DNA from: Opitutales bacterium
GTDB taxonomy: Bacteria > Verrucomicrobiota > Verrucomicrobiia > Opitutales > Intestinicryptomonadaceae
Length of the DNA: 23,010 nucleotides
NCBI GenBank assembly: GCA_017633865.1
Contig: JAGBOM010000224.1
Location: 1-23,010 of the forward strand
Direction: 5' to 3'
The translations under genes were made by a program, and so were the position numbers. The notes below the pieces were generated by a model, which was given only the letters and a program-made list of their open reading frames with translations, made no database searches and had not been told where the DNA came from. The number at the start of each line of letters is the position of its first letter. The stretch's first letter is position 1. Positions 8,476-22,728 of the stretch are shown one piece after another.

Positions 8476-8490
8476 TTCGCCAAGTGGCGA
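8476..8490 (-). other. Small hairpin downstream of TR
   Basis: TCGCC (8477-8481) pairs with GGCGA (8486-8490) around four bases. It shares ATTTTTCGCC with the hairpin beyond VR (8676-8691). It lies 40 bases past the TR end, in the TR-RT spacer, a region needed for cDNA priming in the studied phage BPP-1 DGR. Confidence 0.5.
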
Positions 8491-8529
8491 GGCTGCTGTC
8501 CCTTTTTTTGAGTTTCTTTTGTACAAGCA

Positions 8530-8642: not shown

Positions 8643-8675
8643 AGGACAGCCAACCTTGTATTTTCTAAAAAATTT

Positions 8676-8719: not shown

Positions 8720-11317
8720 TTAGGGGGGCGGGATGGCGCAGAGCCGCGACCCGAGATGCGGGCTGACGGAGCCGGGCACGGCGGACGAGGACGCGTACAG
8801 GAAGCCGCAGCGGGAGCCGAGATTCGCAGCACCCCCGAAGAGAACACCCCGGAGCGACACGTCCGACGCGGGCAAATTTGCGCCCCAGTAATAGTCGCAA
8901 TAATACGACGTTGACGAGCCGCCCTGTGTCTTGCAAATAATATCGCCCTGTTCATTGTCGAATATTGTCTTTATCCAGTTGTCGGCGCGTGGAGTGTTGC
9001 CCAGTTCGGTGTATTGCGAAAAATCCGTGCTCGAAAATTTTTGCGGGTCGTCGGTAATATAACACGTCGATATGCCGCCCGCCGCGTCTGATTGTACATT
9101 TATCAATATGCCGTCCGTCCAGTCCCAAATGTCGCCAAACGGTGATTGAATGCCGCGATAACTGTTTACCTCAAATGTTACGAGGATGTTGTCGTCTGCA
9201 TCTTTTACGCTGTAATTCTTTACCGCGCTTTGGTTGCCGTACTCCAACAAATAACCGCACGGAACGAGTGGATTATAACTGTTGTAGGCGTTCCATGCGT
9301 CGCCGTTCCAGTTCGACACACCCGGACCCAATCCGCCCTGCGCGTAGCCGTTGGCATCCTTCGCCGCGTTGAAGTTTTTTTGCGAGTTGAGCGTGGCGTA
9401 CTCGGTAACGAATAACCAATATAACATCCTTTGTGCGAGATATATGTGGCAGTTCCATGCCGTGCCGTTGCCCCTGTTTCGTGCGTACTGGCGGAAATTT
9501 GTTAAAGAAATATTGCTGGCGGGCTTGCCTAATAATGAGCGGTAGGTGTTGTCCCAGTCGGCTGTATTTTGTCCGCCGCGATACTCCGGCGACGAATTAA
9601 CGACGCTGCACAATTTAGGGGTCGTGGGGTCGGTTCTGTCAACCGTCGCCTTCTCCGCAGATACGTACATCAATGGAATTTCAATAAAGCCGGCGAGCGG
9701 GTATTGTGAAATTAGTTTTTTGTGTATTGTGCCGTGAATTTCCGATTTAAAGTAATGCTTAGGTATTTGGAGCATCAGTTGGCCCGCGCTTCCATCCACG
9801 GTTTCGCCGCTCCAGTCGGATTGGTCGGCGAAGGGCGTAAACGTTAAATCGTCCTGTAATAAGCCGCCAATTATGGCATTTTGCACGGGCAGCTCCGCGT
9901 GAAGGCTCATGTTGCCGATGCGGGTACAATCCGGGCTGGGATTGCTCTCGTCCCACTGGACACCATAAAAAAAGAAATTTAGCGAGATTTTGTAAATTTC
10001 GTTGTCGATGTAATTCCGTGTGTTCCACGCTTCCAGCAGGCCTCGGTGGTCGGTGTCGGTGGTGTTGATGTCTTGGATGGTGAGCGACGCGGAGACGGTC
10101 TGCACGTTGTTTGTTTTCGCTGATACGTTTGTAGTTATATAGCTGCCGTCTGTACCTTTACTGATGCCTTGGAGTGCGCTGTCTGCCTTCGCGCCCTGTG
10201 CCGCCGTTGCCGCGTATGCCTTCACGTTTGACGCTTCGGCAAGTCCTTTGTGGGTGTTGTCGGCGGTGGTGATGTCTTGGATGGTCAGCGACGCGGCGAC
10301 GGTCTGCTCGTTGTTTGTTTTCTCTGTTACCGTCGTAGTAATATAATTGCCGTCTGTGCCTTTGGAGATACTTTGCAGCGCGGTGTCTGCCTTCGTACCC
10401 TGGGCCGCGGTCGCGAAGTCGGAAGGGTCGAGCGAGGGCTGCGCATTAACTCGGACAAATGGCGGCTGTGTTATAAATGAAGTTGGATATGCTGTTATTT
10501 CTTGCGTCGTTTCTGCTTCATAATAATAATCAGACGGCGGCAGGGCTTTTAATACATTAAATGCCAACTGGCTACAATCCGACGAAATAGGCAGCGCAAA
10601 ACATCCGTAATTGTTAAACCACGCATAAAGCAAACTATTATCATTTAAATCTGCTCCAATAAATGAACTAATGCCCCACGCAGACTTATACAGCACTTTT
10701 GGCTCATAATCTAAATATTTAACCGTGTTATTGCCTAAGTATTGTATCGGATTGTCATAGTCCATAAACTCATCGCCTACGTCTGTGCGGTCGTACACAT
10801 ACGGAAATAGCAAATACTGGTTATTATCAACCGTTACGGTTGGCAAGTCGTCGCCGCCGATTAGTAAGTCGGGCGAGAATAAAAATACATAAGCGTAGTT
10901 ACGCTCGGATGCACAGCGACATAATATTAATTGTTCGGTTGTAAATGTTATGTAGCCATGCTCTTCATTTTGCCGCACATATAGTTGCTTTGCTGTTAAT
11001 GTGCCGCCCCGTTTTATTTCTATATAGCCAGTGCTTTGGTATGTATATTGCGTTTCTCCGTATTCAACTGCAACTGGCTCCTGCCTTTTGTAAAAATAGC
11101 CGTTCACAAAATCCGCCGTCGTTTCACCTTGGTATTGTCCAATTTCTCCGACTTCCAGCTCCTCGATACTTTGGAAAAATTTTGGCACTTTGTCGGACAC
11201 GTTGCCGCGCAGTGCCTCAATCTCGCCCTCGAGCCTGGCGATGTCGCCAGGTGTCGCCGAGTCGTCCTTCTTCTGAAGGTTTAATTTTAAAAGTGGATTG
11301 TATTCGTAGCCCGCCAT
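8720..11317 (-). CDS. DGR target: variable fibre-like attachment protein, 865 aa
   Basis: This large protein is probably displayed on the virion and binds the host. It starts MAGYEYNPLLKLNLQKKD and has a short coiled coil (about 23-38). A beta-rich region follows, then two copies of a fibre-like module (about 302-360 and 368-425), then a C-terminal domain of about 400 residues ending in the variable region. The end pattern (SLRGVLFGGAANLGSRCGF, then RLC) matches the formylglycine-enzyme/C-type-lectin-like fold used by DGR targets. VR covers about residues 822-859, with 11 amino-acid differences from TR. No signal peptide is seen. It lies at the end of the virion gene block, just before TR and RT. 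Confidence 0.9.
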   Translation of the reverse strand: MAGYEYNPLLKLNLQKKDDSATPGDIARLEGEIEALRGNVSDKVPKFFQSIEELEVGEIGQYQGETTADFVNGYFYKRQEPVAVEYGETQYTYQSTGYIEIKRGGTLTAKQLYVRQNEEHGYITFTTEQLILCRCASERNYAYVFLFSPDLLIGGDDLPTVTVDNNQYLLFPYVYDRTDVGDEFMDYDNPIQYLGNNTVKYLDYEPKVLYKSAWGISSFIGADLNDNSLLYAWFNNYGCFALPISSDCSQLAFNVLKALPPSDYYYEAETTQEITAYPTSFITQPPFVRVNAQPSLDPSDFATAAQGTKADTALQSISKGTDGNYITTTVTEKTNNEQTVAASLTIQDITTADNTHKGLAEASNVKAYAATAAQGAKADSALQGISKGTDGSYITTNVSAKTNNVQTVSASLTIQDINTTDTDHRGLLEAWNTRNYIDNEIYKISLNFFFYGVQWDESNPSPDCTRIGNMSLHAELPVQNAIIGGLLQDDLTFTPFADQSDWSGETVDGSAGQLMLQIPKHYFKSEIHGTIHKKLISQYPLAGFIEIPLMYVSAEKATVDRTDPTTPKLCSVVNSSPEYRGGQNTADWDNTYRSLLGKPASNISLTNFRQYARNRGNGTAWNCHIYLAQRMLYWLFVTEYATLNSQKNFNAAKDANGYAQGGLGPGVSNWNGDAWNAYNSYNPLVPCGYLLEYGNQSAVKNYSVKDADDNILVTFEVNSYRGIQSPFGDIWDWTDGILINVQSDAAGGISTCYITDDPQKFSSTDFSQYTELGNTPRADNWIKTIFDNEQGDIICKTQGGSSTSYYCDYYWGANLPASDVSLRGVLFGGAANLGSRCGFLYASSSAVPGSVSPHLGSRLCAIPPP
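8741..8853 (-). repeat. DGR variable repeat (VR)
   Basis: This is the variable copy of TR at the 3' end of the target gene. Differences from TR occur at 18 positions, all opposite coding-strand adenines of TR, and change 11 codons (His to Leu and Arg; Asn to Ala, Leu, Ser and His; Ile to Leu), plus one silent change. The adenine-poor end (AGCCGCGACCCGA on the plus strand, from 8742) is unchanged and would be the IMH. The pattern shows that mutagenic retrohoming has acted on this lineage. Confidence 0.95.
10045..10417 (-). repeat. Tandem fibre module duplication
   Basis: Two direct repeats of about 170 bases (about 10045-10215 and 10250-10417) encode related segments of the target protein that share KADxALQxISKGTDG and SLTIQDI. 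The copies have diverged mainly at single bases. Such modules are common in phage fibres and may arise by recombination. Confidence 0.8.
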
Positions 11318-11321
11318 AATG

Positions 11322-11519
11322 TTAACTGTCTTGACATTCTATTTTTGTGATTTGCCCGGAGTCGTTGAGCGTGAAGTATTGAGCGAACACCACGCTGTCG
11401 CCTTCGTAATAGGTAATTTTTGTGATGTTGCCATTTTCATCGCGCTCCAGTTCCTCCGACCGTCCGGGAACTGTCGCCCAGCTATCGCGCGTTGTTTCTG
11501 TGTAATTGCCGCCGATCAT
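11322..11519 (-). CDS. Small beta-rich protein, 65 aa
   Basis: The protein has alternating hydrophobic and polar residues of beta type (NITKITYYEGDSVVFAQYF) and begins MIGGNYTETTRD. It ends four bases before the fibre gene starts, so the two may form a unit. It could be a fibre-associated or adaptor protein. I do not recognise the family. Confidence 0.65.
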   Translation of the reverse strand: MIGGNYTETTRDSWATVPGRSEELERDENGNITKITYYEGDSVVFAQYFTLNDSGQITKIECQDS

Positions 11520-11524
11520 GTGCT

Positions 11525-12217
11525 TTACTTTTTAGATAGTGCCTTAATTATTAAGAAGGCCGCGAGGCCGCCGAGAAGCCAACCGGCGACACCGAAGCCG
11601 CCCTCCTCGCCGGGAACGCCGCCCAAATACTTTTTACATATTGCGTCCAGCTTGTCCGCTCCGATTGCGAACAGGCCGCCCTTCTTGCGTCGAGCGTCCG
11701 CAACAATGTTATAAAGCGCAGCCGCCGCCCTTGTGCCGTTGGAATATGCAGCGTTTACCAGGTTCGCGAAGGTTTGGAAGTGTCCCGGCCCGTTCCAAAC
11801 TGCGTAGAGGAATTGCAGCTGGAGCTGCGGATTGCTCATAATTACAGCTTTTGCGCCGTCGGAGAGATAGCGGCCGGCGTAGTCGTTGTACATTGCCTTG
11901 ATGATTTCGCGGGTGTACTGGCGCAACTGCGCACCAACCGCTGCAGAGATGCCGCGCTTGCCGTCCGCCTTGTCGCCGTAGTAGCTTGTATCGCCGTGAT
12001 GGTTGCCGTAGTAGGTGTCTATCAACTTCCAGAAATTGCGGCCGGCGGTGCTGTCTGTCACTGCAGAGCCCGCGCCGTTTTTCCTATCGAGCCCGAACAT
12101 CGTCTCGCCGCTGATGCCCATTGCTTCGCCTCCCTTGAGCTTGTCTTTCATGTCCGGGTGATAATAGCCGCCCTCGATGTTGTCGATTATTAAATCGACC
12201 ATATCTTCCATCTCCAT
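11525..12217 (-). CDS. Membrane-anchored GH108/lytic transglycosylase-like enzyme, 230 aa
   Basis: The N-terminal IEGGYYHPDM (about 14-23) resembles the catalytic EGGY...P block of GH108-type and related phage peptidoglycan enzymes, with Glu15 the likely acid. GISGETMFGLDRKNG (34-48) and YAVWNGPGHF (about 158-167) fit a lytic-transglycosylase-like fold. A C-terminal hydrophobic helix (about 206-226, WLLGGLAAFLIIKALSKK) anchors it in a membrane. Virion-borne, membrane-anchored muramidases are known in PRD1-like and other internal-membrane phages, where they open the wall at entry. No holin or spanin is recognised next to it. Confidence 0.7.
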   Translation of the reverse strand: MEMEDMVDLIIDNIEGGYYHPDMKDKLKGGEAMGISGETMFGLDRKNGAGSAVTDSTAGRNFWKLIDTYYGNHHGDTSYYGDKADGKRGISAAVGAQLRQYTREIIKAMYNDYAGRYLSDGAKAVIMSNPQLQLQFLYAVWNGPGHFQTFANLVNAAYSNGTRAAAALYNIVADARRKKGGLFAIGADKLDAICKKYLGGVPGEEGGFGVAGWLLGGLAAFLIIKALSKK

Positions 12218-12229
12218 AATTTTACCATG

Positions 12230-12823
12230 TTAAATTAATTTTGCCATGTCCTGGGGGACAGGGATTATTAACTCTGTGTCGTCGCTGAATGTGTTGGCCG
12301 TGTAGTCGTTTACTGTGTTGTAAACCTTGTTGCCAAGCATGTTAACGCCTTCGCCGGCAAGTGCGCCCATTATTGTACCGGCCTGGAACGTGTGCCCGGC
12401 ATACGTAAAGGGCATTGTTGTAACTACTTTTTTCGCCTTCGCAAACTGAATGGCTTTTGTGTAGCGTTCGTCGTTCAGACCATCCTGTAAAGCTTTATTA
12501 AGCGTGTATTTGTTATCGCATAACGCGCTAAATTTCTTGCCAACCTCGTTCCAGTTCGTTATCTGGAGACATACGCGCAGAGCCTCCTGCGCATTGTTTC
12601 TGTAAGGACTTCCCGCACTCCAGCCAACCAGCACGGAGTCGGTGACGTTGAGATATTTTTTCAGAAGCGCCGCCTGTTCTGTTTCTGTGCTCGTGGTAAG
12701 GTCGGAGATGGCTTTATTTTCCTGCTCCGTTTCCTTTTTGCCTCGGTTTTTGAAGTAGAAAAAAATTCCCGCTCCGAGAGCCACCGCGCTAAGACCTACG
12801 AGCCAGCCTTTGCTATTGTCCAT
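12230..12823 (-). CDS. N-terminally anchored membrane protein, 197 aa
   Basis: A membrane helix at about residues 7-26 (WLVGLSAVALGAGIFFYFKN) is followed by basic residues and a soluble domain of about 160 residues with mixed helix and strand character. The opposite topology to its C-anchored neighbours suggests a different placement relative to the membrane. It sits between the muramidase and the Lys-rich protein. No family is recognised. Confidence 0.7.
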   Translation of the reverse strand: MDNSKGWLVGLSAVALGAGIFFYFKNRGKKETEQENKAISDLTTSTETEQAALLKKYLNVTDSVLVGWSAGSPYRNNAQEALRVCLQITNWNEVGKKFSALCDNKYTLNKALQDGLNDERYTKAIQFAKAKKVVTTMPFTYAGHTFQAGTIMGALAGEGVNMLGNKVYNTVNDYTANTFSDDTELIIPVPQDMAKLI

Positions 12824-12838
12824 CGCCTTTTATTTTAT

Positions 12839-12866
12839 GAAGGGCGCAGCGTTCGCCGTGCCCTTC
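12839..12866 (-). other. Intergenic hairpin within the late operon
   Basis: GAAGGGC (12839-12845) pairs with GCCCTTC (12860-12866) in the 68-base gap between two late genes. On the minus strand it is followed by an A-rich rather than a T-rich stretch, so it is more likely an mRNA-stability or processing element than a terminator. Confidence 0.45.
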
Positions 12867-12891
12867 TGGTTAGACTGACAAAACGCAGCTG

Positions 12892-13131
12892 TTAAAAGCC
12901 GCTTAACTTCTGCTTAGCCTTTGCGGCGCGTTCCTTGATGGCCTTGCGCTGCTTGACTTCGTTCTCGTACGCTGTCACCTTCTTTTTGTACTCCGCAATC
13001 TTCTTGTTGTTGTCCGCGTCGATGGCTTTTGTCTTTGCGTCGTAGTTCTTCCATACCTCGATGCTCGCGGTCTCTCGCGGGGTCTTCGGGTATTTCTTGA
13101 GTTTTGGTTTTGATGGTTTCTTAAGTGCCAT
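12892..13131 (-). CDS. Lys-rich basic protein, 79 aa
   Basis: About a third of residues are Lys or Arg. The N-terminus has short Lys-Pro repeats (KKPSKPKLKKYPK) and the rest is a charged helix, probably a coiled coil. A DNA-condensing or genome-binding virion role fits the composition and the place in the operon, but is not proven by a motif. Confidence 0.65.
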   Translation of the reverse strand: MALKKPSKPKLKKYPKTPRETASIEVWKNYDAKTKAIDADNNKKIAEYKKKVTAYENEVKQRKAIKERAAKAKQKLSGF

Positions 13132-13169
13132 AATCCGTATCGTTTATATGTTTATTAATCTGTGAATTG

Positions 13170-13367
13170 TTACAAGTATGTTAGCGCGCTGCGCAGCCTC
13201 TTTGTGTCCTGCGCGAGCTGCACAAGCTTCATTAATTCCTGTGCGCTTAGGTTGCCCGCCGCTATCTGTGTGCGTATCGCCGAGGCGAGCTGCTCTGTCA
13301 ATCTCTCAAATGAGAGGTTGTTCGCCTCGATGGTTGGCGGCTGCGGTTTTCTGATGAAGTCAAACAT
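13170..13367 (-). CDS. Small helical protein, 65 aa
   Basis: After a basic, Pro-rich start (MFDFIRKPQPPT), the chain is one or two amphipathic helices. Its start overlaps the stop of the 298-aa gene by eight bases, so the two are translationally coupled. It may be a small assembly or scaffold protein. No family is recognised. Confidence 0.6.
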   Translation of the reverse strand: MFDFIRKPQPPTIEANNLSFERLTEQLASAIRTQIAAGNLSAQELMKLVQLAQDTKRLRSALTYL

Positions 13368-14256
13368 TTTGCGTACCGCCCGCCCCCTTCGGGAACTCTA
13401 CCGCCGTAGCCTCCTGTGGCTGCTGCGGCGGTGTGTTGTGTTTCATCGCGGCGCGCTGCTTGATAGCGAGCGCGATTTCGTTAACGTCCTGCTCCGTTAA
13501 TGCCGGGTCCTGGTACATTGCATTTGCCAACGCCTCCACCGCGCCATATTTCGGGTCGGTGGGTCGGCTGGTGTCCGCTCCCGACAACGTAGCGGGCTGT
13601 GCCTCCGCCGCATTGTTGATTGGCAAGGCGGGGAACAGTTCGCCCAAAATCTTTTTTATTGCCATCACAAGCGTATCGGCCGCCGCGCCTGTATTGCTCT
13701 CATATTTACGCCTTTCGTCCTTGAGTTCTTTTTTTATCTCCGCAATTTCGCGGAGTTCGCGGTTGCGCCGCTCCTCAAAGTCCTTTTCGCGCTGCTTCAA
13801 TAAAATTTCATTGATGCGCTGCTCGTTCTTGACCGCAATGCCTTCGAGCTTGGCGTTGAGCGTCTCCTCCGACACCCAGCCGGGAGGCGGTTGCATAAAA
13901 CCAAAACCACCCAATCCCGCCGCCTGTTGCTGCGGCTGCTGTGTCGGCACTTCGTCCGCCTTGTCGTGGTTGTAAAACTCAAACGGGCCGAGCGTGCCCT
14001 GGCTTCCGTTTGCGCCCTTCGAGCTTCTAAGCTCAATACAGAGCAGCGCGTCCGACGGTATGCCCGACTGAAGCGCACCATTGAGGCGTGCGATGGCTTT
14101 TTCTGTCTTTGCTGCCGCGTCGTCGTCGCTCTGCCAGTCGTCGCCGTTGTAGTGCATAATTGGTACTCTTTTGTAATTCTGCATTACAAACAGGCTCCAG
14201 CAGGGGTACTGCGTTTGCCTCATGTGGTTAATGATGTAATCCTTTGTCAGTTTCAT
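13360..14256 (-). CDS. Coiled-coil virion protein candidate, 298 aa
   Basis: A folded N-terminal domain (1-100) is followed by a Gln/Gly/Pro-rich linker (about 105-130). A strongly charged coiled coil comes next (about 140-190, EKDFEERRNRELREI), then an Ala/Pro-rich C-terminal domain. There is no Walker A site, so it is not a packaging ATPase. It may be a scaffold or vertex protein. It starts four bases after the upstream gene ends. Confidence 0.7.
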   Translation of the reverse strand: MKLTKDYIINHMRQTQYPCWSLFVMQNYKRVPIMHYNGDDWQSDDDAAAKTEKAIARLNGALQSGIPSDALLCIELRSSKGANGSQGTLGPFEFYNHDKADEVPTQQPQQQAAGLGGFGFMQPPPGWVSEETLNAKLEGIAVKNEQRINEILLKQREKDFEERRNRELREIAEIKKELKDERRKYESNTGAAADTLVMAIKKILGELFPALPINNAAEAQPATLSGADTSRPTDPKYGAVEALANAMYQDPALTEQDVNEIALAIKQRAAMKHNTPPQQPQEATAVEFPKGAGGTQNV

Positions 14257-14260
14257 TTTG

Positions 14261-14740
14261 TCAGTCTGTTATTATTATTATGTCGTCATTTGCATTTTTT
14301 TTGCCGTTGTTGTCGCCGTCGCTGTTGTTGCCGCCTGTTTCCAGCCTTATCGGGGCCATGTACATGTACAATGCGCAAAAATTTATAACGCTTGCAAACA
14401 TCGCGTCCGTTGTGCCTTCAAACAGGTTAAATTTAAGCGTATTGTCCGCCGTAAATATAAAATCCGTCTCGACTTTTTGCAGCGTGCCAAAATCCACTAC
14501 TTCCGCCACTGGCGACAAGTCCCAGAAGTCGGTGGGCGTGTCCACTTGCAAAAATTTCTTTTGCAGTTGGTTTTTGTCGGTTATCTCACCCTCCGCAAAT
14601 ACACGGTAAAAGAAGGCAACGCCGCCGGAGAACTGGAGCACGTTGGCCACGTCCGCCTTGCTTACATACTTACATTTAAGCGTGTAATCCTTTATGCCGT
14701 GGGTGGTGGCGTAGTTCTTGATATAGTCGCAAACGTCCAT
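14261..14740 (-). CDS. Hypothetical virion protein, 159 aa
   Basis: The protein is beta-rich from about residue 35 to 125 (GGVAFFYRVFAEGEI, DFIFTADNTLKFNLFEG) and ends with an Asn/Asp/Gly-rich tail, including GGNNSDGDNNGKKNANDD. It follows the 251-aa capsid candidate after four bases. A minor capsid or spike role is possible. No family is recognised. Confidence 0.65.
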   Translation of the reverse strand: MDVCDYIKNYATTHGIKDYTLKCKYVSKADVANVLQFSGGVAFFYRVFAEGEITDKNQLQKKFLQVDTPTDFWDLSPVAEVVDFGTLQKVETDFIFTADNTLKFNLFEGTTDAMFASVINFCALYMYMAPIRLETGGNNSDGDNNGKKNANDDIIIITD

Positions 14741-14744
14741 TTTT

Positions 14745-15500
14745 TTAGCGTGTTAATAGGAATGTTACAGTAAAATCCGTCGCCGTGTAGCTCATTGGTG
14801 CGCTGTCTAACTGCGTGAGTCTCAAATTTACCTGCTTGTTTTTCGACTCGAAGGCAACCGGGAAAAACGTCTTGTCATACCCCTGGTTCTCCGTTACGGC
14901 CAAAATGCTCACCGGCACAGGGTCGAGAAGCTCTCTCACACTGTCGTTAATATCGAGCGCGAGGCGCATAATATTTGCCGTGTCGCCGCCGACGAAGTTC
15001 ACGCCCGCCACGCGGTCGTAGTCGGAGGGGAGATTTATGTTGTAGTTTGAACCAAGCGCGGGCTGCTTGATGGTGAAGCTCTGCATGTCGTAGCCTGTAA
15101 CCTCCTCGCCGAATATCGACACCGCCGGCTGCTCGTTGCTTTGCCTAAACAGTGCAACAAAGGTGAAGGCGGCCGCGCTGTTAGTTACTCGCACGTTTAA
15201 GTAATAGTTTTTGCCCGCCGATTGGGACAAAACCGGCCTAAACACCGCCGTAAGGTCGAAGTCTGCGCTGCTGGTGTTTTTGCACCAGTTTTGCACAGGC
15301 GAGAAGCTAAGGATGCTTTTAAAGTCATCCCGGAGCTCTATTTTAATCTCATCCGCCGAAGGTAACGCCGTAACGAGCGGGCACGCGATGCCGGTGAGGA
15401 ACTTGTAAAGCTCGTCCGATTTAAAAACGTATTGATAAGCCTGTGTTCCTGTCGTCGCTGGTACGGTGAACCAATATTTTTGTATAAGTTCTTTTGCCAT
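14745..15500 (-). CDS. Beta-rich capsid protein candidate, 251 aa
   Basis: Almost the whole chain alternates short strands and loops (for example NYYLNVRVTNSAAAFTFVALF, DFTVTFLLTR at the end), as in jelly-roll capsid proteins. It lies directly after the 210-aa gene, with an AT-rich spacer between. Its length suits a single jelly roll or a short double one; FLiP and PRD1 major capsid proteins are longer. The ATG follows GGTGTAACAAA. I infer the capsid role from fold character and position only. Confidence 0.6.
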   Translation of the reverse strand: MAKELIQKYWFTVPATTGTQAYQYVFKSDELYKFLTGIACPLVTALPSADEIKIELRDDFKSILSFSPVQNWCKNTSSADFDLTAVFRPVLSQSAGKNYYLNVRVTNSAAAFTFVALFRQSNEQPAVSIFGEEVTGYDMQSFTIKQPALGSNYNINLPSDYDRVAGVNFVGGDTANIMRLALDINDSVRELLDPVPVSILAVTENQGYDKTFFPVAFESKNKQVNLRLTQLDSAPMSYTATDFTVTFLLTR

Positions 15501-15530
15501 TTTGTTACACCTTATATTATATATATAATG

Positions 15531-15626
15531 TTAGTGAGGCGGCGTGTTCCGGCGAGAACGCTTGCGCGGCTTTTGGATGCCGCCGCCTCTGGTCGTGGTA
15601 GGCTTCCTCGTGAACGTGAATGTGCT
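15531..15626 (-). CDS. Basic 31-codon extension of the 210-aa gene in the +1 frame
   Basis: The frame opens exactly at the stop of the 210-aa gene, has no start codon, and encodes a strand-like STFTFTRKPTTTRGGG segment followed by a basic tail (KPRKRSRR). Its codons mostly end in G or C, as in neighbouring genes. Read after AAG with one base skipped, it continues the 210-aa protein naturally to about 241 aa. Either a programmed frameshift or a one-base sequence error would explain it. Confidence 0.45.
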   Translation of the reverse strand, partial: STFTFTRKPTTTRGGGIQKPRKRSRRNTPPH

Positions 15627-16257
15627 ACTTTACGCGAATTTCCGAGCCACGGAGCGCAACTTCGATGAAGTAGCGGTTTGTTGTGCCGCTGATGGTTGCG
15701 CCCTGGGGTACGTGCAACCTCATCTGGAGCTCCTGGCTGTCTTGAATGAGCTTGGGAGCGGTGAGGATAATGCCGTCCTTCTCTCCGTTGATGCCCACCG
15801 ACTCCTGACAGAAGGAGTTAATCGGAGATTGGAAAATGTTGAGCTGTGCAAGGTCAAGCTCGAGCTCGCAGTTGCTGATGATGGGGTCAACTGTGCCGAT
15901 GTTCGCCACTGGCAAGTAGTTGATGTTGGCCGCCGTGTAGGTGGTGTTGGTGGCTGCAGTGTAGCCGATGCGCGCCGTGATACGGCTAAGCATGAAGGCG
16001 CAGCCCTGCTTGATTTTCTGTTTCGACAGGTTGCAATAACCGTCTTTGATTGCGTCGTCGTTGTAGAGAAGGTCGAGAAGTCCACCTGCGCCGGTGATTT
16101 CGTACCTCTTGTAGTACACGCTATCGGAGAGGTTAAGGTTGCCGTTCTTGAAGTCCTTAATCATTCCCGGTGAAAGCTTCATAACGCTTGCGAGAAGGAG
16201 AGCTTGGTCTCTTGTAAAGAACTTTGTGATGTCGAGGTTCTTCAGTAATTCTTCCAT
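15625..16257 (-). CDS. Second capsid protein candidate, 210 aa
   Basis: An N-terminal helical region (1-85, with LLASVMKLSPGMIKDFKNG) is followed by a beta-rich half (about 110-210, ELELDLAQLNIF, YFIEVALRGSEIRVK). A gene pair with the 251-aa protein recalls viruses with two small jelly-roll capsid proteins, but no signature proves it. The last strand ends abruptly at TAG, and a basic extension follows in another frame (15531-15626). It starts 19 bases after the 195-aa gene ends. Confidence 0.6.
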   Translation of the reverse strand: MEELLKNLDITKFFTRDQALLLASVMKLSPGMIKDFKNGNLNLSDSVYYKRYEITGAGGLLDLLYNDDAIKDGYCNLSKQKIKQGCAFMLSRITARIGYTAATNTTYTAANINYLPVANIGTVDPIISNCELELDLAQLNIFQSPINSFCQESVGINGEKDGIILTAPKLIQDSQELQMRLHVPQGATISGTTNRYFIEVALRGSEIRVK

Positions 16258-16276
16258 GATTTGATATGTTTATTGG

Positions 16277-16864
16277 TTAAAAAATGCCCATAAGGTTCGC
16301 CGCTGCCATAGCGTCCGAAACACCCATTAGGGATGCAGCCTTGTATGCTGCGTCGTCGTCAACGCCGTCAACTGTCCGGGTTATCTGCTCTGCGTCGTCG
16401 ATGTGCTCGGCCAGATACGCCCAGTCGTTGTTGTACGTCTTGCCGTCTGTGTCGGTGACGGTCTTTTCGCCAGCCGCAAGCGCAAACTCCGGCGGGGCGG
16501 TGGTAGTGCCGAGAGCTCCGACACCGTTAAACATTGCTGCCGGGTTCTTGGTAACATCCAGGCCGCTGATGCCTACCTCCGTGCCTACGCTGTCCGGGGC
16601 GATAACTGCGACGGTGTGCAACGCTGCGTAGGTTGCCACGCCCTGGAAGGCTGCGCGGAGCTTCGGGTCGTCCATCATCATGTCGCCAACCGTGCCAACA
16701 ATTAGCATGAGCGGGCCGCCGATATTCTGCATAGTCTTGCTTTTACCTTCGCCGAAGAGCTTGTTGGTGATGAACGCGCCGCCAACCGCGCCAACACCGC
16801 GCACCGCCGCGTTGATAGCGACGGCAGTTGCGTCTTTTTGCCAGTTCTTTCTGATAAATGCCAT
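16277..16864 (-). CDS. Ala/Gly-rich virion protein candidate, 195 aa
   Basis: The first 75 residues contain small-residue, hydrophobic segments (NAAVRGVGAVGGAFITN, GPLMLIVGTVGDMMMDD) that could enter a membrane. The rest is soluble and acidic. A GEGKSKT segment resembles, but does not match, a Walker A motif. It lies between the 296-aa anchored protein and the capsid candidates. No family is recognised. Confidence 0.65.
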   Translation of the reverse strand: MAFIRKNWQKDATAVAINAAVRGVGAVGGAFITNKLFGEGKSKTMQNIGGPLMLIVGTVGDMMMDDPKLRAAFQGVATYAALHTVAVIAPDSVGTEVGISGLDVTKNPAAMFNGVGALGTTTAPPEFALAAGEKTVTDTDGKTYNNDWAYLAEHIDDAEQITRTVDGVDDDAAYKAASLMGVSDAMAAANLMGIF

Positions 16865-16887
16865 AGTTTTCTATTTATTAAAAGTTA

Positions 16888-17778
16888 TTATTTTTTCTTG
16901 CCTTTCTTTTTGCCTCCAAATACCTTATAAATCAACAGGCCGCCGCCTACAATGCCGAGAGCCCAGCCCCACCAGGGGATGCCGCCCTTTTTGGTTGCCG
17001 TTTGCGTGTTCCCGGTCTGCGCCGCCGGTGCTTCGTAGGTAACGTCTGCCGCCTGTGCAACTTGCGCGGCCTGGTAAGCCTCCGCCGCCTTCTGTACAGT
17101 TTTGGCAAGTGCTGCCTGTGCGGTCTGCGTCGCCTGCGCGTCGCCGGTGTTTTGTGCCACCTTGAGTTCCATCGATGCCGCCTTCTGCGCCGCCTGCGCC
17201 GCTATTGCGTCCGCTTCCGCCTTTGCGCGTTCCGCCGCCGCCGCCGCTATTTTCGCCGCCTCTTCCTTGTCCGCCGTGAGTTTTTTGGCTTCGAGAGTCT
17301 TGTATTGCTGTAATACGTTCTCGCCCTGCCCCGCCTCAAATTGCGCCCATACTGGCCGCTGGAAGTTGTATTTAACTGCAAGCGCGTAACATTCGTTATA
17401 CAATGCGACGTAACGGCTGTATTTTTCGTAATCGTCCTTATTGGTCGTCCTGTAATAGCTACCGGTCGGCAAAAGTACGCTGTATGTTGCACCGTTGGCT
17501 GTTACCCCTGTACCGGTGTTTACTTGTGCTTTGCCGGCTGCCTTGGCGCGGTAACTGTCAATAACCGCCTCGCCGTTGCCCGCTTCAAAGTCGGCCCAGT
17601 TTGGCGGACTTACGTTGTAGGTGTAGGCGAGGCCGTAGGCTGTGTCGTACTGCTGAACATACCCTTTGTATTTGTTGTATTCCGCCTCGTCCGTGAATGT
17701 CTTTTTGCCGCCTGGTGTGTTGAGCGTGTAAACATCGCCCAGACCGCCGCACAATCCGTATAACAAAAAATCTCTCAT
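16888..17778 (-). CDS. C-anchored virion protein with tandem domains, 296 aa
   Basis: I chose the ATG at 17778 because it overlaps the upstream stop (ATGA); the frame stays open further upstream but without a better start. After a short N-terminus come two similar domains (about 25-85 and 105-165) sharing a YxKYxxYVxxYxxxYxLAxxYN pattern and an FEAGxGExV motif. A long Ala/Gln/Glu coiled coil follows (about 170-255), then a C-terminal membrane helix (WWGWALGIVGGGLLIYKVFG) and a Lys tail. Its topology resembles membrane-bound spikes or internal membrane proteins. Confidence 0.7.
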   Translation of the reverse strand: MRDFLLYGLCGGLGDVYTLNTPGGKKTFTDEAEYNKYKGYVQQYDTAYGLAYTYNVSPPNWADFEAGNGEAVIDSYRAKAAGKAQVNTGTGVTANGATYSVLLPTGSYYRTTNKDDYEKYSRYVALYNECYALAVKYNFQRPVWAQFEAGQGENVLQQYKTLEAKKLTADKEEAAKIAAAAAERAKAEADAIAAQAAQKAASMELKVAQNTGDAQATQTAQAALAKTVQKAAEAYQAAQVAQAADVTYEAPAAQTGNTQTATKKGGIPWWGWALGIVGGGLLIYKVFGGKKKGKKK

Positions 17779-18095
17779 CGCCTGTTGCTTTTTTTGTTGT
17801 TGTCCTTCTTTTTGTCTTTGTCGCCGGTGGCTGCTATCAATGTGATAACGGCGAGGCCGCCGAGTGCCCACTTCCACCAGTTGCTTTTTTTTGTTTCCTC
17901 CGCCGGTTCTGCGGGGGGTGTCGCCGCTGATGTCGCCGCCGCCGCTGCAATTTTGCCGGGATCCATGGTTGCCGCCTGTGCGGGAACTGCAGCCGCCGGT
18001 GTGTTTGTCGTCGTCGTCACCATCGGAGCCACCGCCGGTTGGTTGTTACAGCAGCAGACGCTGCGGGGGATTAATTTTATAACTACACATGCCAT
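17775..18095 (-). CDS. C-anchored small virion protein, 106 aa
   Basis: A Cys cluster (VCCCN, about 13-17) lies near the N-terminus, followed by an Ala/Pro/Thr-rich linker (about 20-70), a membrane helix (about 73-90, WWKWALGGLAVITLIAA) and a Lys/Asn/Arg tail. A strong Shine-Dalgarno-like GGAGG lies 8 bases before ATG. It overlaps the next gene by four bases (ATGA). Confidence 0.65.
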   Translation of the reverse strand: MACVVIKLIPRSVCCCNNQPAVAPMVTTTTNTPAAAVPAQAATMDPGKIAAAAATSAATPPAEPAEETKKSNWWKWALGGLAVITLIAATGDKDKKKDNNKKSNRR

Positions 18096-18096
18096 T

Positions 18097-18435
18097 TTAT
18101 TTCCTCCTTCCGCCGTTTGAGTTCATAATTAAAGCCAGGCCGCCGAGTAACACCACGCCGCCAATTATCCAGGGAGTCCAGTTTGTTTCCTGTTTGGCGG
18201 GTGTCCTGTACGACGTGCCGCCGGTGGTAATTGGTGCATAGGTCGAGGTGCTGCCGCCTGTCACCGTCGAGCCGCTCGCTTGTGCGCTCTGGTTTTTCGC
18301 TGTAATTGCCGTGGTCGCTATCGTAGTGCCGGCGTTAATCCCGGCATTAATCAACGGCATCCAGTTCTGCAGATTTTCGCCGCCCGCGCCAAGTCCGTTG
18401 CACCTGCCTATTTCGTATGCTGCTATTCTGTCCAT
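18097..18435 (-). CDS. C-anchored small virion protein, 112 aa
   Basis: The chain is Ser/Thr/Gly/Ala-rich, with a membrane helix near the C-terminus (about 85-106, WIIGGVVLLGGLALIMN) and a GGRRK tail. I chose the ATG at 18435; an ATG 42 bases upstream overlaps the previous gene by 26 bases. The next gene starts one base after its stop. It is one of four consecutive genes with C-terminal anchors. Confidence 0.6.
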   Translation of the reverse strand: MDRIAAYEIGRCNGLGAGGENLQNWMPLINAGINAGTTIATTAITAKNQSAQASGSTVTGGSTSTYAPITTGGTSYRTPAKQETNWTPWIIGGVVLLGGLALIMNSNGGRRK

Positions 18436-18451
18436 TTTCAATAAAATTTCA

Positions 18452-19894
18452 TTAACGTTTTTTCGCGAAGGCTGCAAACAGTAGCAACAAGCCGCCAGCC
18501 GCTGCCGCCGCGATTAAATATTTTTTTGTGTCGTCGCCTTCCTGTGCCGCGTTTTCGTTTGCCCAGTATTGCTCCCATGTGATGTAATTGCCGTTTTCGT
18601 CCATGTAGAAGTTGCCCGCAGAGTCGAAGGCGTAAATCTTGCGCAGCTCGTCAAGCTGTGCCTGTGCCGCCTCCGCGTTTGCTTTGTTTTGCGCCTGCAG
18701 CTGTGCCTCCTGTGCCTTTGCCTCCTTTGCCGCCTCCTTCGCTGATTTTATCGACGCTATCCACTGCCATATCTGCGTTAAAATGCCGATACAGGCGGCG
18801 ATGGTGGCGGCGATGGTGGCGGGGTCGCCAAGTGTCGGCTCGCCGTCGTCGGTGTCGTTGGTCGGCATGTCGAATTTAGTATTTTTGTCCACCTTTGGCT
18901 CGGGGAGCTTCGAGCCCTTTTTTATGGATTTTTCGAGCTTATCGACGTTGCCGCCCATCGTTTTAAACAGCTTGCGAAGCCGCTGCATTGCCTTCACGCC
19001 ATCCTTCCATGCGCTCTCGCTGTAGCCGAGTGCCGCAGCCTCTGATTGTGTGAGGAGTCCAACATTTAATTTTGTCGCCATCCCGGCAAGGTTTAGCGCA
19101 ATTAGAGAGCGGAGGCCGTTTCTCAACAGAACGGTAACAGGATTAATCTTTATAAACAGCACTTTGAGCACTTTGCCCGCAATTTTTACCGTTTCTTTTG
19201 TTAAATTAACGATGTCTTTTTGTGCTTCATAAGCGGCCTTCCAGGGGTCGATTGCGGAGTCTTTGAACTGGTTGCCCGCCTTCTTGATGCTCTCCTTTGC
19301 GCCGCTGGTGTTGCCGGTGACGAGCTGCCCCGCCGCCTTAAGGGTGTTAGCTGTCGCCTTCGTAGCGTTCACGACGCTTTTTGCAGCTGCCGATACACCA
19401 GTACCCACTGCCTTAACGCCCGAGGCGAGAGCCTTACCCAATTTCTTAAGCCAGCCGGCGAGCTCCTCGTCGTCAGTGCCAGGCGTGTGCAACATGTTAA
19501 TATAATCATCCTCCGCGTGCTTTACGGCATCCACCTGTTCCTGTGTGTAAAACAAGTAGCCGCCGTCCTGCTCGTCGATGTCCTCGATATAAGGCACGAT
19601 ATGAGAGGCGAGCCGGTATGCCTCGAAGTCGGTGTTGCTCAATATGATTAAAACCTTAGCTTTACGCGCGTCGGTGTAGTCGGAAGGCTGCGCCGTGCCG
19701 TCTGCAATCTTTTGCGCCGCTACGTTGTAGATGCCCTCGATACCGTGCAATGTCTCCGCCTGTGCGCGTATGAAGGCGGCACGCCGGGATGGCTGCACCA
19801 TCCGCGCCGCGTACGCCTCCAGGCTCGCCGAGCCGGGGAACTGCGCCCCATCTATTCCGCTAAGACCATAAACTGGTATCATCAACAAAAACAT
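18452..19894 (-). CDS. Large membrane-associated virion protein, 480 aa
   Basis: After a soluble N-terminal domain (1-150), the chain has amphipathic Ala/Lys/Val segments (LKKLGKALASGVKAVGTGVS) and possible membrane segments (about 240-275 and 360-380). A charged Ala/Glu/Gln coiled coil follows (about 380-415), then a C-terminal anchor (LIAAAAAGGLLLLFAAFAKKR). It could act in membrane penetration or genome delivery. A second in-frame ATG lies four codons in. The stop of the previous gene lies three bases away. Confidence 0.65.
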   Translation of the reverse strand: MFLLMIPVYGLSGIDGAQFPGSASLEAYAARMVQPSRRAAFIRAQAETLHGIEGIYNVAAQKIADGTAQPSDYTDARKAKVLIILSNTDFEAYRLASHIVPYIEDIDEQDGGYLFYTQEQVDAVKHAEDDYINMLHTPGTDDEELAGWLKKLGKALASGVKAVGTGVSAAAKSVVNATKATANTLKAAGQLVTGNTSGAKESIKKAGNQFKDSAIDPWKAAYEAQKDIVNLTKETVKIAGKVLKVLFIKINPVTVLLRNGLRSLIALNLAGMATKLNVGLLTQSEAAALGYSESAWKDGVKAMQRLRKLFKTMGGNVDKLEKSIKKGSKLPEPKVDKNTKFDMPTNDTDDGEPTLGDPATIAATIAACIGILTQIWQWIASIKSAKEAAKEAKAQEAQLQAQNKANAEAAQAQLDELRKIYAFDSAGNFYMDENGNYITWEQYWANENAAQEGDDTKKYLIAAAAAGGLLLLFAAFAKKR

Positions 19895-19896
19895 TT

Positions 19897-21930
19897 TTAG
19901 TTAAACAATCCGGCGAGCTGCGCCGCCGTCGCCCTGTCCGTTACCCTGTAAATTTCGCTGTTACTTACGCCAGGCGGCAAACTGTTAAACACAAACCAAA
20001 CGCGGTCGCAGCGTATGCCGTCGAGATTTACAAGTATGTGGGAAGGTTGTTTTTTACCTTTAAAACATACAAGCTCGAAGGCGGGGTCGTACCCCATGCA
20101 CTTCAATACACACCAGGCAAACACGCTAAGGCAATCGCAATCGACTCCGCGCCGCCTATCCGCCCAGGTTCTTAACGGCGTGCGCACTTCTTCACGGCCT
20201 TCCCGGTCGTATTCGTAACGGATGTTATGCCGTAGCCAGTGCCACAAATTAAAGACGCTCTGAAGTTTAGTGTCTGCCTTGAGGTGCTGCGCTATCCTGG
20301 CACAATCTTTATAATGTGCTTTGCAAATGTCTGCAATAAGTTTTTTTGTATCGTCGAGGCCTACGCCGGCGAAGGTCTGCGAGTGTTGAGCCGGCGCAAA
20401 AAAAGCGTCGTAGCTCTGTAATATTTTGTACGTAGGCTTGAGGCCTCGACAATCCATTAACTCATTATTATTATATAATGCGTCGTTGGCGGTCTTGCCG
20501 AGGCCTTTTTGTGTCGGCATTATCTTGTGCCGATAGTCAAACATCTCCTTACCATTGTCTATATATACAAAACCTTTCGGGAGTTTTGGAAGCCATTTGG
20601 GTATATTTTTAGATATACGCCAGCCTTCTGGAAGTGTTGGAACAATACCGACAAATTGACTTATCAAACCATTTGTTTGCGATATTCTTTCGTTATCTGC
20701 GTATTTATAGCCCAATATGTTAGCAATATTACTAACGCGGTCATAATTACCTTTGTCGATTTCTTCAATAAAGTATTTTATTATTATATCGCGTAAATTG
20801 CTAATATACCTTGCTTTTACACGACTGCCAGGTTCATCAAGTTTTTGCGGCCTTGTCTTGTAAAATGCTTCATCTTTCCAAACTTCGAGCATTTTATCAA
20901 CTTCCTGCATCCAATCTTCTTTTGTTTTTACTTTCGGCTTGATGGGTGTTTTTTGCTGCTGTAAGTCGCTTTTGATTTGCTCATAAAGCAACGGGTCGTC
21001 GGTCTGCATCTTTTGCAGTTCCTCGCCGCTAAACTTCCGGATGTCGTATTTTTTTAATGCCGCCGTATCTTCCAAGTCCTTCCGGGCTCGCGTCCTCGTG
21101 TCGGTGATTATATATGTATCACCAGGCGCACCAAGAGAATTTTTTTCGTTAAATGTTTGGTTATTTGAAACATTTAATATATCTTTGCCACTGAAAGGCA
21201 GACAGATTTCAACGACTTTAAAGGGTTTGTTTGTACGGACAGTTGCGTTGAAGCTGGGAGCCGTACGGCTTTCTTCCCAACCATAGGGATATAAGACATT
21301 ACCGCTGTTTGCCTTTTTTATTATGTCTTTCAATTTTTTAGGATGGCAGGAGCTTACATAATTGTAAGTATCAAATACCAATGTAACACAAAATAAAATT
21401 GGCTTCCCGTCGTAGTTAGTGAATGGTTTTACAAATACAAGCCCCTTATCGTCTAATATCGCCATACGTGGATTTTCCAAAGTAGGCTTAATTAACGCCT
21501 TAAATATTGTACGGTCTTGCCAATTAGAGTTTTTCTCTTTAAGCTTATCTTCTAACTGATAATCTCTTAATACAATCCATTTATAAGGACGTGCCAGCGG
21601 TGTCTCTACAATGTACGTTTTACGCTTCCCTGTTGTATTGTGAATTGTAAGCACATTTTTAAAGGAGGCTTCGTTAAAATCCTCGGGCGGAATAAAGTCG
21701 GCTGGATTGCTTGTTAAATACTCTGTAATATTCTTTTCGTCAACAACTTTCACACCTTCCACCGGCACAAACATCTCCTCCTCCTCGTTCCATGTTACAG
21801 GCGAGGCCTCGCCCTCCTGCATACGCTTAGAGAACGCCACGAGGCTCTCGTTGTCCTCAAACTCCAATTTGATCGAGGGCTTGCCCAAACCGCTGAACGC
21901 GCTTTTATATGTCGTGCCGTAAACTCCCAT
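19897..21930 (-). CDS. Virion protein with C-terminal transglutaminase-like domain, 677 aa
   Basis: Residues about 570-655 carry a transglutaminase/cysteine-protease-like triad: GVDCDCLSVF with Cys598 (or 600), SHILVNLDG with His631 and CDRVWFVF with Asp642. The family can cross-link, hydrolyse or deamidate proteins. The first 550 residues do not resemble a family I know and contain mixed alpha/beta stretches and charged regions. There is no membrane anchor. Possible roles are processing of virion or host envelope proteins. It lies early in the late operon, 4 bases after the WHy-like gene. Confidence 0.65.
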   Translation of the reverse strand: MGVYGTTYKSAFSGLGKPSIKLEFEDNESLVAFSKRMQEGEASPVTWNEEEEMFVPVEGVKVVDEKNITEYLTSNPADFIPPEDFNEASFKNVLTIHNTTGKRKTYIVETPLARPYKWIVLRDYQLEDKLKEKNSNWQDRTIFKALIKPTLENPRMAILDDKGLVFVKPFTNYDGKPILFCVTLVFDTYNYVSSCHPKKLKDIIKKANSGNVLYPYGWEESRTAPSFNATVRTNKPFKVVEICLPFSGKDILNVSNNQTFNEKNSLGAPGDTYIITDTRTRARKDLEDTAALKKYDIRKFSGEELQKMQTDDPLLYEQIKSDLQQQKTPIKPKVKTKEDWMQEVDKMLEVWKDEAFYKTRPQKLDEPGSRVKARYISNLRDIIIKYFIEEIDKGNYDRVSNIANILGYKYADNERISQTNGLISQFVGIVPTLPEGWRISKNIPKWLPKLPKGFVYIDNGKEMFDYRHKIMPTQKGLGKTANDALYNNNELMDCRGLKPTYKILQSYDAFFAPAQHSQTFAGVGLDDTKKLIADICKAHYKDCARIAQHLKADTKLQSVFNLWHWLRHNIRYEYDREGREEVRTPLRTWADRRRGVDCDCLSVFAWCVLKCMGYDPAFELVCFKGKKQPSHILVNLDGIRCDRVWFVFNSLPPGVSNSEIYRVTDRATAAQLAGLFN

Positions 21931-21934
21931 AACA

Positions 21935-22459
21935 TCAACTATTTAAAGCGTCCGCACTGAATGGCACTGTAGTGTCGATTTTGATAGTAAAGCCCATCGT
22001 CTTAATCTGTCCCTCCACCTTCGCCTCCGTCGGCCAGTTTGCGCCGTTGCCTGTAAGATAGCCGGCGAGGATTTTCGCAGTAGCCACGCCGATATTTGCC
22101 CACGGCACGGATATGTCGAAGGGCAAATCGACGCTGCTATTTTCCGGGATTTCTATCGGGACGTTATTGGTATTGAGTGTTGCGATACGATGGAGAGAGC
22201 CGCCAAAATTAAGGAAAATGTCGAGGTACATCTGATTGACGACAAGCGGAGTGTTTTCGAGGTTGGTAAACCTCATCCAGACGCGGAACACGAGGTTGCC
22301 GCCGCTGGCAAACTGGTAAAGCTGTATTCTGGTGAGTTGATAGCGCAAGCTCTCCGCCGCCTTAGCCTTGCGCACAAGATAGACGGCGTAAATGGCCGCG
22401 CCGGTGATGGCCGCGACCGCAAAAAATTTTCCTAATCCGTTGTCATTGTTGGTTGTCAT
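21935..22459 (-). CDS. WHy/LEA14-like anchored protein, 174 aa
   Basis: A membrane helix at about residues 11-30 (KFFAVAAITGAAIYAVYLV) is followed by a beta domain (about 40-165) with FRVWMRFTNLENTPLVVNQM and SVDLPFDISVP. That pattern resembles the immunoglobulin-like LEA14/WHy fold also found in some phage genomes. A strong Shine-Dalgarno-like GGAGG lies before ATG, which is uncommon here. It is a membrane-bound virion candidate. Confidence 0.65.
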   Translation of the reverse strand: MTTNNDNGLGKFFAVAAITGAAIYAVYLVRKAKAAESLRYQLTRIQLYQFASGGNLVFRVWMRFTNLENTPLVVNQMYLDIFLNFGGSLHRIATLNTNNVPIEIPENSSVDLPFDISVPWANIGVATAKILAGYLTGNGANWPTEAKVEGQIKTMGFTIKIDTTVPFSADALNS

Positions 22460-22512: not shown

Positions 22513-22728
22513 TTACGCAACGGGGGATGGGTGCAAGTATTTCGGGAAGTGCGAATAGAAGAAGCGCAGCACCTCCTCCTCGTCCACGAGGTTGTAACGA
22601 CTTGTTGCCTTAGCCTTAATTAGCTGTAATTTAATTAAATACCCTATGCTCTGCGCGTCCCATATTGAGCGCAGCACAGGATTTCGGAGCATTACCTCCG
22701 TCGGGGTGTATAATATCTTAGCCGCCAT
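22513..22728 (-). CDS. Small MerR/excisionase-like HTH candidate, 71 aa
   Basis: The sequence WDAQSIGYLIKLQLIKA, then VDEEEVLRFFYSHF, fits the pattern of MerR/Xis-type winged helix proteins, which bind DNA to regulate transcription or excision. I chose the ATG at 22728 because a -33/-7 promoter ends about 18 bases upstream; a longer frame would include the promoter. It is the first gene of the late operon, so autoregulation is plausible. It could equally be a small virion protein. Confidence 0.55.
   Translation of the reverse strand: MAAKILYTPTEVMLRNPVLRSIWDAQSIGYLIKLQLIKAKATSRYNLVDEEEVLRFFYSHFPKYLHPSPVA

Follow-up and report, generated by a model that had tools for sequence, protein, structure and literature searches.

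A DGR beside jelly-roll capsid genes in the genome of a probable tailless virus of Bacteroidales

DGRs are best known from tailed phages. Among phage records, those closest to the cassette described here come from crAss-like phages, cr55_1 and cr50_1 (Suoliviridae), which are tailed and have genomes of ~98 kb. Other systems also invite comparison. FLiP and phiCjT23 are ssDNA double-jelly-roll phages of Flavobacterium; neither is known to have a DGR. Salisaeta icosahedral phage 1 (SSIP-1) is a cultured tailless phage with a host near Bacteroidota. The Helvetiavirae (P23-77, SH1, HCIV-1) have two single-jelly-roll capsid proteins. One paper gives FLiP as ~9 kb of ssDNA, SSIP-1 as circular dsDNA of 44 kb, and the capsid of SSIP-1 as "single jelly roll?" (PMC6260650).

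Here, the window (the whole stretch of 23,010 nt that was analysed) has ends that overlap exactly by 119 nt, with a period of 23,087, giving an element of ~23.1 kb. With a probability of about 84%, we read it as a tailless icosahedral gut virus, with a Paludibacteraceae bacterium (Bacteroidales) as its presumed host and a genome, nearly complete here, that is circular or arranged head-to-tail; a DGR would diversify its probable spike, and the cassette was probably exchanged with tailed phages. Directed hypermutation of a receptor-binding protein would then extend to a virus realm for which the literature searches listed no such report, and this would suggest that a device of tail fibres works on a tailless vertex.

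The DGR cassette and its target

All features discussed here lie on the minus strand. The DGR stands at the downstream end of the late block, a leftward run of 18 ORFs taken as genes (8720-22860). The reverse transcriptase (RT; 339 aa, 7390..8409) is of the DGR type; it matches Pfam RVT_1 (1.1e-16) and PHROG 1423 (2.3e-113), and its residues 2-325 match PDB 8ub7 (3e-38), which we take to be the DGR RT of BPP-1. A template repeat (TR, 8527..8648) and a variable repeat (VR, 8738..8859) form a direct repeat of 84% identity, and between TR and RT lies an Rfam RT-17 RNA (8407..8494; 41.8 bits against a gathering score of 40.4). TR and VR differ at 20 of 122 positions. Eighteen of these 20 are template adenines, and 18 of the 23 adenines are changed (hypergeometric 3.9e-15). 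VR falls inside the target gene (8720..11317), which adjoins the RT. An RT of the DGR kind, adenine-specific mismatches and a VR at the 3' end of the target gene together establish the DGR that the earlier note had claimed.

Such an element would copy TR through RNA, with the RT misreading adenines. The mutated cDNA would then replace VR, near the C-terminus of the target, to give progeny spikes with differing binding tips.

Two small genes lie beyond the RT. A protein of 122 aa (7047..7415; PHROG 11557, 2.8e-18) is a possible DGR accessory protein; it is 36% identical to cr50_1 gp045 (E 2.8e-15), and as a candidate for Avd it gave no Pfam match and no PDB match below 0.17. The other, of 107 aa (6724..7047), matches PHROG 19665 (2.7e-20) and found nothing in tblastn of phage records.

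The cassette compares most closely with that of Crassvirales. The RTs of cr55_1 and cr50_1 are 51% and 42% identical to that of the window, the C-termini of their targets 36% and 42%, and in both phages the target is near the RT. Only cr50_1 shares the accessory gene and, unlike the window, it has the RT before the target. In cr55_1, a TR/VR repeat search gave nothing; a repeat-like stretch between tail protein and RT can be seen by eye. Because the RT, the target tip and one accessory gene all resemble those of crAss-like tailed phages, the cassette has probably crossed between virus realms.

The target (865 aa) is probably a vertex spike or fibre, and probably the protein that binds the host. 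It matches PHROG 5302 (4.6e-97), a family that crAss-like phages also match; the fold at its C-terminus is, we presume, C-lectin-like. Instead of belonging to the virion, the protein might be secreted by the infected cell or displayed on its surface, and here its N-terminal part is pertinent: it is unmatched in the phage records listed (20 of 52), since those matches begin at residue 398 or beyond. We consider this role unlikely. The target gene closes the late block, and its product has no membrane segment that we could find and carries a tandem repeat (D2, 10022-10414, by repeat search). In crAss-like phages, proteins related to its C-terminal half bear a tail-protein annotation and are encoded near a DGR RT (residues 449-863 are 42% identical to the cr50_1 tail protein).

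Capsid folds and the search for tailed-phage machinery

The earlier note had picked out beta-rich capsid candidates in the late block, and structure prediction agrees with it. The putative major capsid protein (MCP; 251 aa, 14745..15500) is predicted at pLDDT 95.3 to be a double jelly roll. Compared with solved structures, the top 15 rows for this model are all double-jelly-roll proteins of viruses, either capsid or scaffold (STIV, PRD1, PM2, PBCV-1), and the match spans its whole length; a predicted MCP of this fold is what the window shares with Bamfordvirae. The FLiP capsid is not among the listed structural matches, which excludes nothing. A neighbouring protein of 210 aa (15625..16257) is predicted as a single jelly roll and is a candidate penton. 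Jelly rolls, as the structure comparison also brought up, are found in enzymes as well.

Sequence searches with these proteins found fewer companions among known viruses. Phage records, those of FLiP and phiCjT23 included, held no match to the late-block DNA, the 251-aa or the 210-aa protein; a viral contig collection held none to the 251-aa protein or to capsid-gene alignments A1 and A2; and PDB sequences returned nothing useful for the 865-aa, 230-aa, 122-aa and alignment A1 queries. Yet the protein database is rich in capsid relatives, with 68 capsid clusters (the longest contig is 20-25 kb in 12 of them) and 137 penton clusters (20-25 kb in 23 of the 120 listed). One gut survey reports an unsuccessful search for vertical jelly-roll capsids (PMC8530359).

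If the window were instead a tailed phage or its satellite, its capsid and packaging genes would have to be too diverged to see, with the 251-aa protein serving in a tail or as decoration by means of its jelly-roll domains. The target's family, PHROG 5302, is labelled "tail protein," and this is the only tail-labelled match above cut-off in the late block. Below threshold, or weak, are matches of the 480-aa protein to T7_gp14 (0.0035) and TMP_2 (0.0052) in Pfam, of the 197-aa protein to phrog_10574 (tape measure, 0.037), of the 298-aa protein to phrog_5240 (tail fibre, 0.18), and of the 329-aa protein to phrog_339 (tape measure, 0.47).

Against this, no terminase, portal, HK97 capsid, sheath or baseplate was found above cut-off with all 18 late ORFs scanned in PHROGs and Pfam and 7 of 18 in NCBIfam. 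The hallmarks of Caudoviricetes (large terminase, portal, HK97 capsid) are thus missing from the 18 late ORFs in PHROGs and Pfam, and no window ORF of at least 40 aa has the Walker A (P-loop) motif. Relatives, by inspection of their ORF lists rather than family by family, show no terminase either. Add the whole-length capsid match of the 251-aa model and the tie of the 677-aa protein to a structural protein of tailless SSIP-1, and a tailed phage, which we rejected on the missing hallmark matches and the missing Walker A, becomes very unlikely. The earlier note had proposed a tailless, membrane-containing virus; the jelly-roll folds, the lack of tail-machinery matches above cut-off outside the target, and the SSIP-1 link support the first half, while an internal membrane may be supposed. 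None of what that note had named as counter-evidence turned up: there was no terminase, portal or HK97 match, no plasmid match of the 210-aa protein, and the contig is an element of 23.1 kb whose ends overlap.

The missing motif has a second consequence. By sequence, the window genome lacks a recognisable packaging ATPase, and the FtsK-HerA ATPase expected of Bamfordvirae is not found in its ORFs of at least 40 aa. This ATPase is also missing in the Odin and FLiP groups of double-jelly-roll viruses (PMC5894146).

A plasmid or integrative element might use jelly-roll proteins for a purpose other than a virion; no particle is known, and enzymes also have the fold. Such an element is highly improbable given that a double and a single jelly-roll protein of capsid type lie side by side, that the block shares a protein with SSIP-1, whose gp34 is annotated as structural, and that a plasmid search, made with the 210-aa protein alone, gave no match. 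A rolling-circle Rep, as in FLiP (Finnlakeviridae), was sought in part of the early ORFs, and the early protein of 350 aa matched no Rep family in Pfam, PHROGs or NCBIfam.

A chimeric assembly, with a piece of a crAss-like phage joined to a tailless virus, is scarcely credible: the RT and target tip are indeed closest to Crassvirales among phage records, and most sizes of 20-25 kb MCP contigs have no counterpart among the RT matches listed, but those phage matches, at just 42-51% identity, are not recent, the clusters that hold the RT and the MCP of the window have 12 contigs each with the same longest contig, and 23,578 bp recurs as the length of the longest contig for MCP P0008 (81%), penton P0117 (76%) and RT P0196 (74%), a same-contig link that rests on matching size.

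SSIP-1, relatives and two states of the capsid gene

Among the closest described systems for the tailless virus that we favour is SSIP-1. The transglutaminase-like structural protein of the window (677 aa, 19897..21930; PF04473 at 0.0019, below cut-off) is homologous to SSIP-1 gp34, with E 2e-4, or 6.4e-21 with a profile built without that phage. SSIP-1 has a run of structural genes that includes gp47, of 256 aa, and I1ZBI0, which among viral models matches the 251-aa MCP best, is likewise 256 residues long. Profiles of MCP and penton found no match in SSIP-1 gp44-gp48; direct homology of MCP to gp47 did not show by profile (P 0.2%, gp47 having been entered as a single sequence). SSIP-1 differs in its genome of 43.8 kb, in gp40, which carries a P-loop and is annotated as an ATPase, and in having no reverse transcriptase named among 56 of its 57 features listed.

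The domain of the 677-aa protein occurs in 22 of 197 genomes, its own counted. Genomes that match the 210-aa profile as well as this domain were examined as relatives. They belong to Bacteroidales and share late genes, and the order of these genes, with the window. In G147, G360 and G278, Pfam phage integrases are encoded close to the block.

In 15 relatives the capsid slot has two states. Four have one fused gene, as does the window, and 11 have a half-length gene of 112-137 aa. The half-length genes are homologous to half of the fused gene (P 82-97% against two of the fused halves; 8.3% for the best of 192 controls) and would be expected to fold as single jelly rolls. They are not uniform in setting: a protein of 367-397 aa precedes the short gene in G331, G002 and G007, and a second gene of 258-393 aa is present in G338, G023, G114 and G015. 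Between the second genes and the fused protein there is scarcely any match. The half-length state recalls Helvetiavirae, which differ from the window in that its capsid domains are fused and it has no P-loop ATPase. Because its MCP is one fused gene, the window itself is not placed in the P23-77-like viruses.

A concatenated tree of 17 rows (transglutaminase-like domain, 210-aa and 195-aa proteins) would allow a single switch from one state to the other. Of 200 bootstrap trees, 77% have a branch that sets the fused group apart (support 73/78), and 54% have one for the other group. The SSIP-1 row, very long and with 23% of the columns filled, does not fix the root.

Since the lineage holds both fused and half-length genes, fusion or fission within one virus lineage may be proposed. 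The fuller reading stands at about even odds: one tailless Bacteroidales virus lineage has both capsid states, fused double and homologous half-length, and a virus of its fused branch, with no recognisable packaging ATPase, has acquired across realms the hypermutation cassette of crAss-like tailed phages, with which it varies its vertex spike. The double jelly roll has been argued not to stem from fusion of the two Helvetiavirae single-jelly-roll capsid genes (PMC8812541). Fused and half-length genes offer a chance to test its origin and, if the reading is true, fusion or fission would make the independent origin of the two capsid kingdoms a matter of debate again.

The remaining late genes

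Several other late genes recur in relatives. The ORF that opens the late block (22513..22860, called at 115 aa) has profile matches in G304, G360 and G188 and a tblastn match to G360 (4.9e-12); the 174-aa protein (21935..22459) matches G147 (2.1e-7) and G360 (2e-6); the 480-aa protein (18452..19894) matches the same proteins of G147 and G360 as does the 677-aa protein. Profile matches were also found for the 195-aa protein (16277..16864) in 11 of 12 relative regions, for the 298-aa protein (13360..14256) in G147, G360, G304 and G188, and for a basic 79-aa protein (12892..13131) in G147 and G360. The 159-aa protein adjoining the capsid gene (14261..14740) has, by position only, a counterpart of 108-143 aa near the same place in relatives. 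Iterated profiles drifted in places, those of the 174-aa and 210-aa proteins drawing in transglutaminase-like proteins; E-values of iterated profiles and of concatenated-tree rows count rows already joined to the profile, and the SSIP-1 match was redone without SSIP-1 for comparison. Known as ORFs only are proteins of 329 aa (16888..17877), 106 aa (17775..18095, no Pfam match) and twice 65 aa (13170..13367 and 11322..11519).

The single-anchor membrane proteins that the earlier note had seen are present. The protein it took for an anchored muramidase (230 aa, 11525..12217) has a C-terminal membrane anchor; the enzyme found no confirmation, Pfam, PHROG, NCBIfam and PDB offering no useful match. 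Anchors are C-terminal also in the 480-aa protein (segment 459-477) and in the 126-aa protein (18097..18477, found in its 112-aa form), and N-terminal in those of 197 aa (12230..12823) and 174 aa. With segments scored at Kyte-Doolittle values of at least 1.6 in a list of 16 late ORFs, from which an overlap rule left out those of 106 and 159 aa, five (230, 197, 112, 480 and 174 aa) have one hydrophobic segment and the 115-aa ORF has two.

Virion genes and contig ends

The region is read here as the genome of a tailless virus that carries a diversifying retroelement (DGR), with a probability of roughly 0.84. The earlier note recognised no terminase, portal, tape measure, sheath or baseplate in the late block. 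In PHROGs and Pfam, terminase, portal, HK97 capsid and tail machinery likewise had no above-cut-off match in any of the 18 late ORFs, save for the label attached to the DGR target. The pattern [GA]xxxxGK[ST] was absent from window ORFs of at least 40 aa in all frames. Thus, a packaging ATPase is not recognisable. Sought in ORFs of at least 60 aa, the same pattern was absent from 8 of 15 relatives' regions; in the remaining seven it is carried by genes within the block or beyond it. PMC5894146 describes the Odin and FLiP groups, which are double-jelly-roll viruses, as likewise having no ATPase. The single-anchor proteins and the kinship to SSIP-1 (Salisaeta icosahedral phage 1, which is tailless) suggest an internal membrane in the virion.

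The window corresponds to bases 38-23047 of a contig (C52) of 23,255 bases, in a genome of 3.67 Mb and 87 contigs. An exact copy of the first 119 bases of this contig stands at its end; the period is 23,087, and a circular or head-to-tail genome would look like this. At the contig end, past the window's right end (locus L003), lies a perfect palindrome whose arms are 60 bases each; it overlaps the end of this terminal overlap and may be a hairpin end, a fold-back or an assembly artefact. The last ~22 bases of the window (22989-23010) differ from C52, as do 3 of the first 963. Over 18,241 bases the window is matched at 100% identity by JAGBRL010000004.1 (23,251 bases), a contig of the Paludibacteraceae MAG RGIG9379, which comes from yak cecum. 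Paludibacteraceae is a family within Bacteroidales.

Relatives and their capsid genes

The 251-aa major capsid protein (MCP), a predicted double jelly roll, has 68 homologues among 388 candidates, all of 241-261 aa. The 210-aa penton candidate has 137 among 397 (120 of the 137 listed). In the protein database, relatives lie on contigs of 20-25 kb, and some homologues of these two proteins on far longer ones (196,354, 79,924 and 78,714 bases). Two capsid alignments found no relative of the window among 2.9 million viral contigs. With none found there although the protein database has some, the lineage seems to evade virus finders. Within the same order, 13 of 393 genomes match the 210-aa profile and 3 of 393 the 251-aa profile, the window's own genome counted in both; within the same family, 4 of 20 match the 210-aa profile, again with its own counted.

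Fifteen relatives' regions were examined. Pfam places phage integrases near the block in all three tested (G147, G360 and G278). Of 12 regions searched with iterated profiles, every one has the 210-aa protein as well as the transglutaminase-like domain, and 11 have the 195-aa protein. A transglutaminase-like profile built without SSIP-1 matched SSIP-1 gp34 at 6.4e-21, its sole match among 339 ORFs. With the RT, the target and 8 early ORFs of the window as queries, tblastn at 0.01 found nothing in the 15 regions or in SSIP-1; an RT match in G278, at 1.4, is at chance level. In G278, the 210-aa-type gene is separated from the capsid slot by a C-5 cytosine DNA methylase gene (PF00145, 2.2e-48; L049:10843-11571).

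That slot holds a single gene of 243-294 aa in four relatives (G147, G360, G188 and G304). The remaining 11 of the 15 have a gene of 112-137 aa there, with a second gene after it. Two genes of ~125-137 aa instead of one of ~250 aa are seen at L049:11568-12331 (G278), L051:8371-9149 (G087), L047:8405-9229 (G049) and others. The first of the two shares homology with one half of the fused capsid protein. In profile-profile tests using 10 of the 11 first genes, these matched the fused provirus protein in its N-half with a probability (P) of 96-97% (E 3e-9 and 5e-10), and the C-half of the window MCP at 82-92%. The provirus N-half matched the window's N-half at 92-95% and its C-half at 97%, the two window halves matched each other at 43-57%, and first matched second short gene at 93-95%. 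Weak values came from the second gene, which reached no more than 19% with any half of a fused protein, and from the first when set against the provirus C-half (0.4%) or the window N-half (2-7%). The best of 192 control comparisons, which used reversed and column-shuffled profiles and other families of the same loci, including that of the 210-aa protein, also a jelly roll, reached 8.3%.

Judged by these values against the controls, the capsid-slot domains are, at the level of sequence profiles, one family; the comparisons do not show first and second genes turning into N- and C-halves. PMC8812541 proposes independent origins for double and paired single jelly-roll capsids; a lineage with both fused and half-length genes is a place for testing that proposal. 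In G331, G002 and G007 (L053:8165-9358, L060:11331-12434, L061:5729-6832), the short capsid gene is preceded by the gene for a protein of 367-397 aa, which may be another jelly-roll protein.

The retroelement and its origin

Pfam identifies the RT clearly as RVT_1; it is also a member of PHROG 1423, with a match to PDB 8ub7 spanning residues 2-325. TR and VR, each of 122 bases, differ at 20 positions, 18 of these at template adenines, of which the TR has 23 (hypergeometric 3.9e-15); the remaining two are a C-to-G and a T-to-C change. The VR lies near the stop codon of the 865-aa target gene, and an Rfam RT-17 RNA (8407-8494) lies between TR and RT. The gene for a 122-aa protein overlaps the RT end; its product shares 36% identity with a protein from crAss-like phage cr50_1, and had no match to the Avd family in Pfam and PDB sequence searches. 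From the cassette and the gene order, the DGR would generate variants in the tip of the target, a probable spike, during infection, and tailless particles bearing differing tips would then be released. Among the titles and abstract openings listed from open-licence papers, none concerned a tailless double-jelly-roll virus with a DGR. In the global DGR survey (PMC8144416), the phylogenetic test of viral genomes relied on TerL genes.

A search of 50,697 phage records gave 52 matches for the target and 141 for the RT, every one below 60% identity. The best are crAss-like: cr55_1 for the RT (51%) and cr50_1 for the target tip (42%). The order in cr55_1 (target, RT, 111-aa gene) resembles the window's, whereas in cr50_1 the RT stands ahead of the target. 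The natural reading of these sequences is that the cassette was exchanged with tailed phages.

A misassembly joining a tailless virus to a crAss-like fragment would also place a DGR on this contig. It might be argued from the fact that, of the 20-25 kb contig sizes listed for the MCP, all but one fail to recur in the 120 RT matches listed of 7,718. One size does: MCP cluster P0008 (81%), penton cluster P0117 (76%) and RT cluster P0196 (74%) each have a longest contig of 23,578 bases, from which we infer a single genome bearing all of them. For the MCP and the RT of the window itself, the cluster holds 12 contigs in each case. Such a chimera is very improbable.

Two genes on the plus strand of the window carry further features. 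The 244-aa protein (2674-3408) matches PHROG 21498 (3.9e-61), had no match in Pfam, and contains an NPPFS stretch, which we take to be adenine-methyltransferase-like. The 313-aa protein (3951-4892) combines 11-residue repeats (33-nt family D1) with a single membrane segment, at residues 212-230.
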